Source: Candidatus Xiphinematobacter sp. (GTDB lineage Bacteria > Verrucomicrobiota > Verrucomicrobiia > Chthoniobacterales > Xiphinematobacteraceae). From it: a stretch of DNA of 64,000 nt. Shown one piece after another: positions 27,938-46,669 of the stretch. The stretch's first letter is position 1. The number at the start of each line of letters is the position of its first letter. Where the stretch lies: NCBI GenBank assembly GCA_016766635.1, contig CP068473.1:368673-432672 (forward strand). The letters are read 5' to 3'. Under the pieces are notes generated by a model. The model was not told the DNA's origin. It saw only the letters and a list, made by a program, of their open reading frames with translations, and made no database searches. The position numbers and the translations under genes are program-made.

Positions 27938-28766
27938 CGGTTGCGAAAGGAATCCCCTTGGGAAAAAACAGTCAAAACCCACTCCCTAGTGCGTAGGGTT
28001 AGTCTCCCCCCTCTTGTGAGGGCCCATGCAGAGAGGGAGAGGCTACTCGTCTTGGAGATCGGCGCAAGTAAATTCTTAGCATTTCGTTATTTTATGAGCC
28101 AAGTAGATGTTAGCTCAGTGCGACTTTTGAGAGAACTCTGTCCTGGAGACATCATTTTTTGCGCTAGAGCCAACTTGCTTTTTTTCTTTTTTCCAGATGT
28201 AGATCCCGATTGCCCAGTGTGCGGGATCACTCCATCTCCTTCCGACTCCCCCTCCACCCCTAAACCAATTGCACTCTTGTTGGTTAAAGGCTGTGGAAAA
28301 ACCGTGTAAGAAGGCTTTTGGAGGTTACCCCTGCACTAAAAACCCTTGACAAAATAGGTCCGGATCAAGCGCTCCTAATCTTGATCTAAAAATGCCTTCT
28401 AAAAAATCTCTCCGTAAGGATCCCATGCACCGATATGGTGCCCTGTAGGTATTCTGTGCCCATGGACTTTTTCTACATGCTTTCTGCAGAGCGCCTGTCT
28501 AGTTGCAGTAATCGCCTCACACAGACACAGGGAAGGGGGGCGAAATTACCTATTCTAGCGGAAAGAAAGCACCACCTCGTCGCATATTTCCTTTTTTTTT
28601 GTTTTTGAGCAGGAGAAGATCCGCCACATTTCCACTATATAGCCACTGTATAGGTGCGAGGATTCTTATTTGGCGCTCACACTCGAGTCGGGAAGAGTTT
28701 CATTCCGCTTAAGGAGGAGGATAGGCGATTGTCATTCATTGGAGAACAAGTGACTTATCAAGCTGA
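27938..28766. other. Long gene-free region upstream of the str operon
   Basis: This region must contain the promoter for the minus-strand ribosomal block, but no clear -35/-10 pair was found. A T10 tract lies near 28590-28600 without a hairpin. At 28711-28720 there is a perfect Shine-Dalgarno (AAGGAGGAGG) followed at 28729 by a TTG and a 21-codon plus frame ending at 28794, inside the tsaB 3' end. No known gene was recognised. Confidence 0.55.
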
Positions 28767-29393
28767 TTATTGCCCAGTTGAAAAGGTAAATTGAGAAGCA
28801 GACTGAGTGGTGTGCGGAGGCTTTAAGTAAAGAGGGGAAAGCCCCTGCTCCGAGGTTGGGTATTCTTTTGCAAGAAAAGCCAATTTCCCAGCATTAGGAG
28901 GAAGTACACATAGTTTTGGAAATGCTGGAACCGGAGAAACGGTGTAGACAGGATCCCTACAAGTCTGCCTCCAAACGAAGAGTCTTTTTTGAAACTCCGT
29001 ATGAGACAAGAGCTGAAGATTTTCTAGACATTGCCCAGAGACAGTGCCGAAGAACAACGATCCTCCCCGCGCATCTCCAACGACTGCATAGCGCTCCGCA
29101 GGGGATTCTACGCCAAGAACAGAGGGAATACCACATAAAGGGACCCTCCAGGCAATTTTCAGGCCCGTGGCCAAGGAGATAGCAGCTCGAATCCCATTAT
29201 AGGCACCTGGCCCAATCCCAACAGCAATACGGTGCACACGCCCTTCTCTCCCTATTATTACCTTTTCAAGAGCACGACACAGGGCCCCCTCCCCGCCTCT
29301 GGGCTGCGCAAAGCGCTCCACTAAGAGCTTGTCTCCCCGTCGGATGGCCACGCTCCCCAGATGAGCCGAAGCCTCTATAGCCAATACTCTCAA
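28767..29393 (-). CDS. tsaB: tRNA t6A37 biosynthesis protein TsaB
   Basis: TsaB is the inactive Kae1-like partner of TsaD in making N6-threonylcarbamoyladenosine at position 37 of ANN-decoding tRNAs. It has 208 residues of the ASKHA fold. The N-terminal MRVLAIEASAHLGSVAI and the segment GIGPGAYNGIRAAIS (usual GPGSFTGLR) mark the family. Its ATG overlaps the tsaE stop by 4 bases, so the two form an operon. Confidence 0.9.
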   Translation of the reverse strand: MRVLAIEASAHLGSVAIRRGDKLLVERFAQPRGGEGALCRALEKVIIGREGRVHRIAVGIGPGAYNGIRAAISLATGLKIAWRVPLCGIPSVLGVESPAERYAVVGDARGGSLFFGTVSGQCLENLQLLSHTEFQKRLFVWRQTCRDPVYTVSPVPAFPKLCVLPPNAGKLAFLAKEYPTSEQGLSPLYLKPPHTTQSASQFTFSTGQ

Positions 29394-44640: not shown

Positions 44641-45111
44641 TCATCGCAATCGGCTAATAAGGGTTGTCGTTGAATAGCCAAAAACCCGCGGTGTAAACCG
44701 AATTTCAGCACCCACCTCAATAAGAGCGGTGGTTTCTTCTTGGTCCAATGCGTCTAGGGTATAGTCCCCTCCCTTTACGTATAAAACTGGGCATACTTCT
44801 CGAATAATTTGAGTCGCTCGTAGGGAATCGAAGATCGTAACACAGTCCACACACCTTATAGCTGCTATGATTTCCGCCCGGTCTTCTTGGGTGTTTACCG
44901 GACGTTCTATTCCCTTTAAGGCTCTGGCAGAGGCATCTGAGTTTACTGCTACCAGCAAAAAATCGCCCAGGCTCCTGGCCTGCTGCAAATAACGCACATG
45001 GCCGATGTGTAAGAGATCAAAGCAACCATTTGTTAGAACAAGGCGCATCCCCTGACGATGCACACTCCCGGCAAAAGCTGCCAGGTTTTCCAGGGGCAGT
45101 ATCGTGGCCAT
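44641..45111 (-). CDS. rfaE2: D-glycero-beta-D-manno-heptose 1-phosphate adenylyltransferase
   Basis: This is a nucleotidyltransferase that makes ADP-heptose for the lipopolysaccharide core. It has 156 residues. The HIGH motif in NGCFDLLHIGHVRYLQ is near residues 28-43, and YVKGGDYTLD is intact. The kinase half (RfaE1) is absent, so the two activities are separate genes. It suggests that LPS core synthesis is kept. Confidence 0.92.
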   Translation of the reverse strand: MATILPLENLAAFAGSVHRQGMRLVLTNGCFDLLHIGHVRYLQQARSLGDFLLVAVNSDASARALKGIERPVNTQEDRAEIIAAIRCVDCVTIFDSLRATQIIREVCPVLYVKGGDYTLDALDQEETTALIEVGAEIRFTPRVFGYSTTTLISRLR

Positions 45112-45298
45112 CGTAAAATCTGCTGAAAGGTTACCCCGAAGAGCAGAGCAGGATCATTTGTAGCAGATCAGTATAGTGTGAGCAAGAGTAGGAACTCCGT
45201 CTGTAACTTACTGTTTTACTTGGCCGTCCAAGACCGCCAATGTCCTCTGGAAGCCGTATTCTCCTAACACTTACACTGTTACTGAACATCTTCTTAGA

Positions 45299-45925
45299 AT
45301 GGACTGCTACTTGGAATACTTCTGTGGTCACTATGGATTCTGGATCTATGCTTTCCTCTTCTCCATTATTTTTTCGAGACTGGGTCAATAATTACTCCCC
45401 TTTTTACCCGGGAATACACTGCTTTTTACCGTTGGGGCCCTTGCCGCCCGTAGCTATTTTAGCGTCAGGCTCTGCATCGCTCTACTCGTTATAGCAGCTT
45501 TTGCCGGAGGCGCGGTAAACTACAGTGTTGGCAAGCAATTTGGAATGTCACGCTTCTGGAAGGATTCCCACTCTCCAATGGGGAAATACCTGGGGAGTGC
45601 GGTAAAACGTTCTTTACAAAGCATGGCGGGAAGGCTGTAGTTATCCCGCGGTTCCTACCTATCTTTCGTACTATGGTTCCCTTTGCAACGCTGCAGGGGC
45701 CATCGCATGGGTCGCCCTACGGTACTTGCTGGATGGGTCTTTGGCAACATTCCCCTTGTTGGAGAGAACTTTGAAGTTGTAGTCATCGGTATTTTTGCCC
45801 TTCCTATTTTCTCTCTTGCTGGGAAGGCCCTATTGAGCTGGCAACGGGCCGTGCTGTTCTTCCGAAAGTCTTTACCAGAAGTTCAGACAGCCGGGTCGAC
45901 AGCGACTCGGGATTCCGAAAAGTAA
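45299..45925 (+). pseudogene. dedA: DedA family membrane protein pseudogene, multiple frameshifts
   Basis: DedA proteins are inner-membrane proteins of the undecaprenyl-phosphate/lipid flippase group. Four pieces in different frames together give a DedA sequence: YLEYFCGHYGFWIYAFLFSI; FFETGSIITP; FLPGNTLLFTVGALAARSYF, ending with AFAGGAVNYSVGKQFG; FFTKHGGKAVVIPRFLPIFR, with MVPFATLQGP; and VFGNIPLVGENFEVVVIGI, ending at the stop at 45925. At least three frameshifts separate them. The order and spacing match an intact DedA of about 210 residues, so this is recent decay. Confidence 0.85.
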
Positions 45926-46193
45926 CCTTCTTCTCTTCCTCCTAATCTTCTACTATGCAGAGATCTACAAACATGCGGAGAAGCCCTATGGGAGACACTT
46001 CCCTAGTTGCTATGAAGTCAACCCAGTCGGAGGGCGCCCGCCCAATTGTGTACACAATATACGGACAGAGGGGGAATCCAGGCAAAACAAGGCTTCCCGT
46101 TTTCATAACCCATTGCTCAAAATCGAACAAGCTATCGCAGCTGCAAGAAACGCGGGGAGACAAGGCATTGGACTCCTAACTAAAGACTGCTAG
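45912..46193 (+). other. Protein-like frame without a start codon
   Basis: A 94-codon open frame follows dedA, overlapping its last 14 bases. It begins with ATT and has no ATG, GTG or TTG start upstream in frame. A hydrophobic start (NLLLFLLIFYY) is followed by KIEQAIAAARNAGRQGIGLL near the end. No family was recognised. It may be the remnant of a gene that followed dedA. Confidence 0.3.
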
Positions 46194-46213
46194 AACCACA
46201 ACGGCTAACTGAA

Positions 46214-46238
46214 GCTCCCTAAGGAGCCGGAGTTTTTT
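46214..46238 (+). terminator. Terminator-like hairpin after the dedA remnant
   Basis: GCTCC pairs with GGAGC around CTAA, and TTTTTT follows five bases later. It points along the plus strand, the direction of the dedA remnant. Confidence 0.4.
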
Positions 46239-46324
46239 CGTACCCCCCGAGAAAACCAGCGGAGAACCCAGATAGCTCCGTTCTGACCCAATCCCAAAAG
46301 GCAACTCTCTCTTCTAGCAATACG

Positions 46325-46669
46325 CTACAAACCACTGGCAAGGATGATAGCTTCTAGCTTAGAGAGCAGAACTGCCTGACTAACGTAGCCCACACTTCTG
46401 TCTTTGACCTCACCCTTTAGGAAAAAAAGGACCTGAGGAACAGCCTGTACATGAAAACGCCTGGCCGTGCTTGGATTTTCATCAATATTCACTTTCCCAG
46501 CAACCGCCCTTCCCTGTACTTGCAAGGCGATCTGACTAATTACTGGTTCGAGCATTCGGCATGGACCGCACCATGGTGCCCAAAAATCCACCAAAACCGG
46601 TAGAGTTGCCTGAATAACTAGACTCTCAAAGTTTGATTCTGTAATTGTGATGACCGAATTATTTTGCAT
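46325..46669 (-). CDS. trxA: Thioredoxin
   Basis: This is a general cytosolic disulfide reductant. It has 114 residues, with WCGPC at residues 33-37 and the cis-Pro in VQAVPQVLFF. GGAGAAG lies before the ATG. rsmE follows the same direction upstream but is separated by 74 bases. Confidence 0.97.
   Translation of the reverse strand: MQNNSVITITESNFESLVIQATLPVLVDFWAPWCGPCRMLEPVISQIALQVQGRAVAGKVNIDENPSTARRFHVQAVPQVLFFLKGEVKDRSVGYVSQAVLLSKLEAIILASGL

Follow-up and report, generated by a model that had tools for sequence, protein, structure and literature searches.

The dedA remnant and its counterpart in the sister genome

Xiphinematobacter is a bacterial endosymbiont of plant-feeding nematodes, and the DedA family comprises membrane proteins involved in lipid recycling. 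We analyzed a 64,000-nt stretch of DNA (the window; GC content ~0.49) from a host genome of 917,278 bp in one contig; Table 1 of PMC7857533 gives a GC content of 49.0% for isolate P23 of 'Candidatus Xiphinematobacter' (CP068473). Between a cytidylyltransferase-like gene and a thioredoxin gene, the (+) strand of the window carries DedA-like pieces that follow one another in the correct order and are spread over three frames. Judged from its sequence and setting, this region is a dedA pseudogene:

44641–45111, (−) strand: cytidylyltransferase-like (RfaE2/HldE-type) gene, intact neighbor (PF01467, 1.9e-17)
45247–45925, (+) strand: dedA pseudogene (PF09335, VTT domain), whole remnant, from frameshift-aware alignment to the syntenic intact sister DedA and from DNA alignment
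46325–46669, (−) strand: thioredoxin gene, intact neighbor, syntenic in the sister (PF00085, 4.4e-27)

Among relatives with complete genomes, the closest is G003 (contig of 915,884 bp; hereafter, the sister), which has an intact DedA of 248 aa in one open frame (L041:10330–11076, (−) strand; PF09335, E = 4.6e-18). The two copies share an identical site and identical neighbors, and 148 of 208 aligned residues (71%) are the same, but the sister gene is unbroken, whereas the window copy is broken. The cytidylyltransferase-like neighbor is also syntenic in the sister (79% identical). Across window positions 1–64000, the gene order is that of the sister in inverted orientation, and most of the compared genes are intact.

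The initial annotation had proposed a frameshift-aware search, which we ran with three DedA proteins as queries. The sister protein aligned to window positions 45112–46324 with a score of 658, including five frame changes and one 14-residue gap, compared with a maximum of 43 among 15 shuffles of the region and 36 on the reverse strand. Two more distant DedA proteins (from genomes G001 and G002) scored 488 each, with shuffle maxima of 41 and 42, and their alignments broke at nearly identical places; these scores place homology to intact DedA proteins along the length of the remnant. A plain tblastn search with the sister protein had returned a single forced match (49% identity, two stops) and was replaced by this purpose-written frameshift-aware aligner.

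The evidence for the remnant consists of frameshift-aware alignment and synteny, because neither its separate reading frames nor the profile search gave a match: the two largest ORFs over it, taken singly, had no Pfam hit with E ≤ 1, and a PF09335 profile search of the host genome did not report it. The intact syntenic orthologue reached 66.3 bits with PF09335 against a curated cut-off of 33.9, whereas the remnant pieces had no Pfam match. The initial annotation's reading of a DedA gene with its segments in order and properly spaced, with changes of frame and loss of function, was borne out by the DNA and frameshift-aware alignments together with a survey of conserved residues (see below). Its five segments proved to be six, and the remnant begins at 45247, ~50 bases before the 45299 that it gave.

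Disabling lesions and conserved residues

Compared with the intact orthologue, the window copy carries a series of disabling lesions. The initial annotation correctly described broken frames, and its count of at least three frameshifts is corrected here to six indels. The lesions are listed below, with coordinate ranges that represent the spread across the three query proteins; "both alignments" denotes DNA alignment plus frameshift-aware alignment, and the sister start codon was deduced by reference to where the G001 protein begins.

45247–45249, (+) strand: CTG where the sister has its likely ATG start (DNA alignment)
45262–45270, (+) strand: gain of one base close to the N-terminus, around 45267 (seen only in the DNA alignment; the protein alignment begins downstream)
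45368–45374, (+) strand: one-base loss in a T run (both alignments)
45395–45399, (+) strand: one-base gain in a C run, at 45397 (both alignments)
45411–45413, (+) strand: Asn codon at sister residue 66, a position with Asp in all 84 homologues (conservation survey)
45593–45605, (+) strand: two-base gain (both alignments)
About 45681–45688, (+) strand: junction of a 43-base deletion, with sister residues 156–169 missing and the frame shifted (both alignments)
45714–45718, (+) strand: one-base loss (both alignments)

The conservation survey covered 104 loci searched by tblastn, 84 of which matched the sister protein. Peptide patterns taken from the sister protein had served to retrieve 80 of the 104 loci, and D66 lies outside all of these patterns. 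The deletion removes 14 codons, 10 of which fall at positions at least 90% conserved in the 84 homologues, a figure that is inflated because one fetching pattern (AGMGKMHY) lies within the deleted stretch. The second half of the core was lost with this deletion; the DedA proteins of G001 and G002 contain a stretch closely similar to the missing one. Among the positions listed at a conservation of 1.00, four (57, 66, 210, and 213) are altered in the window and none in the sister.

Sister residues E54, D66, R144, and R150 have the same spacing as E39, D51, R130, and R136 of YghB/YqjA, which are described as required for function (PMC6849406) and as marking COG0586, the undecaprenyl-phosphate (C55-P) flippase subfamily (PMC10127716). 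By this spacing, which was used for the match to YghB numbering in place of an alignment to the E. coli sequence, sister D66 is the counterpart of D51. COG0586 includes UptA, YqjA, and YghB, which are C55-P flippases (PMC10127716). The sister and the homologues keep all four residues, whereas the window copy has departed from this pattern. Specifically, the sister has both acidic residues of the first re-entrant helix, and of these the window retains E54 and has Asn for D66. Both arginines of the second re-entrant helix (R144 and R150) are kept in the remnant, and the stretch just after R150 is lost.

Sequencing error, true decay, and the age of inactivation

Six indels within one 680-base gene could, in principle, have been introduced into an intact gene by sequencing or assembly error, or by a mixed-strain consensus from bulk nematodes. 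Two of the six lie in short homopolymer runs, and the P23 genome was sequenced with 150-bp paired Illumina reads from a library of about 500–2,000 pooled nematodes, as described in PMC7857533. Against this, a 43-base deletion is atypical for 150-bp Illumina reads, and error would also have to account for Asn at an invariant Asp and for the further invariant residues that are altered. Moreover, when 53 other window genes were compared with the sister using the same aligner (15,246 codons), we found one interior frameshift in total (interior being >25 residues from either end). It falls at residue 62 of survey gene 65, in an N-terminal extension, while the ribosomal S11 domain of that protein spans residues 153–263. 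Because the 53 genes hold only this one interior frameshift, outside the conserved domain, assembly error appears very unlikely as the cause of the six indels, and a broken consensus of any such origin is given very little probability.

Not included in the interior count are frame changes close to the N-termini of three survey genes (25, 40, and 63) and stops in two (38 and 65). The survey found no window match for 16 of 73 sister ORFs; eight of these sit at the low end of the sister stretch, in a part that the window does not extend to. Seven ORFs were left out of the 53-gene set (survey numbers 9, 32, 53, 55, 56, 57, and 70), none with a Pfam match; two of them overlap tRNA genes, number 70 overlaps another ORF, and number 57 sits opposite ribosomal-protein-like ORFs. 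A 1,169-aa gene was passed over because of its length.

It is also exceedingly improbable that the remnant still yields a useful product, through programmed frameshifting or as a short peptide. Differences from the sister are most frequent at third codon positions (0.226, 0.139, and 0.332 per codon at positions one, two, and three), and long pieces still read well, but such a codon pattern is what would be expected from the time before inactivation. No single slip could bridge the 43-base deletion together with several frame changes in both directions; none of the ORFs over the remnant has a Pfam match, and the likely start codon is gone. The remnant would give no product with DedA activity, and the sister gene is probably a working flippase.

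The lesions are almost certainly the record of decay in a chromosomal dedA of the type that has the two acidic and two arginine residues of the C55-P flippase subfamily (COG0586). In this reading, function was lost in this Xiphinematobacter lineage after the split from the sister, and the gene is now eroding through small slips and a 43-base deletion. Pseudogenes in reduced symbiont genomes likewise show several small indels within a single non-essential gene, alongside intact neighbors and an intact copy in a relative; this case differs from them in nothing of note. The loss is ordinary gene decay in a reduced symbiont genome, and it provides a clean, well-placed case of a gene lost from just one member of a closely related symbiont pair. 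The published feature table for P23 lists only two pseudogenes (PMC7857533, Table 1), and the word DedA is absent from the main texts of PMC7857533 and PMC4607532.

The region around window positions 27961–28800 presents a mirror image of the dedA case, with a heavily decayed transpeptidase (PBP) gene in the sister. The sister remnant (L149:601–2200; G003:C1, about 521100–522700) aligned to a G001 protein with a score of 449, 12 frame changes, and three stops; in the matching window interval, 27961–28800, no PBP trace exceeded shuffled DNA.

The initial annotation had called the inactivation recent, and in a relative sense this is a fair description. The dN/dS between the window and sister dedA copies (208 codons) was 0.253 (bootstrap 95%: 0.17–0.39), which is far below 1 and ranks third of 54, with two of the 53 other genes higher. 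Median values were 0.124 for the 53 other genes and 0.192 for the five neighbors, the highest neighbor reaching 0.26. If the whole excess accumulated on the window branch under no constraint, the ratio fits a gene that spent ~15–30% of that branch since the split as a pseudogene; if the highest neighbor (0.26) were taken as the baseline, the share would be none. A relative-rate test counted 10 window-only versus five sister-only changes in dedA (P = 0.30, not significant), compared with 23 to 19 in three control genes (the rfaE2-like gene, the PF00953 gene, and MurJ; the PAP2 gene gave no comparable position). The dedA counts did not differ significantly from those of the controls (Fisher P = 0.55), and the test does not show relaxed constraint relative to the three control genes. 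Because the dN/dS share depends on the baseline and the relative-rate test does not set dedA apart, "recent" is only loosely bounded.

DedA, DUF368, and the lipid II cycle

The initial annotation had advised looking for another dedA in the genome, and a PF09335 profile search of the host genome (13 of 14 control genomes positive) detected no second copy. The family was found in 37 of 38 relatives and in 108 of 113 genomes sampled from the class, with the host genome being one of the five that do not have it. According to a review (PMC12826051), the families responsible for returning C55-P are DedA and DUF368. A search for DUF368 (PF04018; 3 of 14 controls positive) gave no match in any of the four genomes of the genus, the host included, nor in the four other class genomes without PF09335 (G045, G048, G088, and G103; 95–99% complete). 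Searches of PMC9876793 and PMC12893004 yielded nothing useful about bacteria without both families.

Next to this double absence stand several envelope genes present in the host genome: UppS, a PF00953 transferase (MraY type), MurJ, PAP2, and two transpeptidases. Since the tested genes of the lipid II cycle are present, loss of dedA does not equate to loss of the wall, and the earlier suggestion that the loss says something about the envelope is partly supported. Going by gene content, the symbiont appears to keep a lipid II cycle with neither DedA nor DUF368. In a sheltered intracellular habitat, DedA may have become dispensable, with C55-P return needed only at a low rate and provided either by a different protein or by slow flipping without assistance. 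That the cycle actually runs without both known C55-P translocase families, with an unrecognised protein or slow, unaided flipping returning the carrier, is a possibility that we hold to be rather doubtful; on that reading, the four other class genomes without DedA and DUF368 might share the route.

A related account, which we likewise consider somewhat improbable, would have dedA lost as another protein took over C55-P return, so that the change was a replacement and not a reduced need. The retention of UppS, the PF00953 transferase, MurJ, PAP2, and the two transpeptidases speaks for it, since C55-P must return if a wall is made, but the other known family, DUF368, is found in none of the four genomes of the genus; the search for candidates covered PF09335 and PF04018. 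Whichever route is used, loss of dedA function after the split from the sister leaves a mild puzzle, i.e., a wall-building cell that manages without DedA, and makes C55-P return a point of modest interest. If both translocase families are absent and the lipid II cycle is kept in the living cell, the symbiont would be a natural test case for walls made without a dedicated translocase.

Two further families showed a pattern within the genus. Each of the two reduced genomes (host and sister) has one PAP2 protein only, and BacA (PF02673) is absent from both, while it is present in G001 and G002, the larger genomes of the genus.
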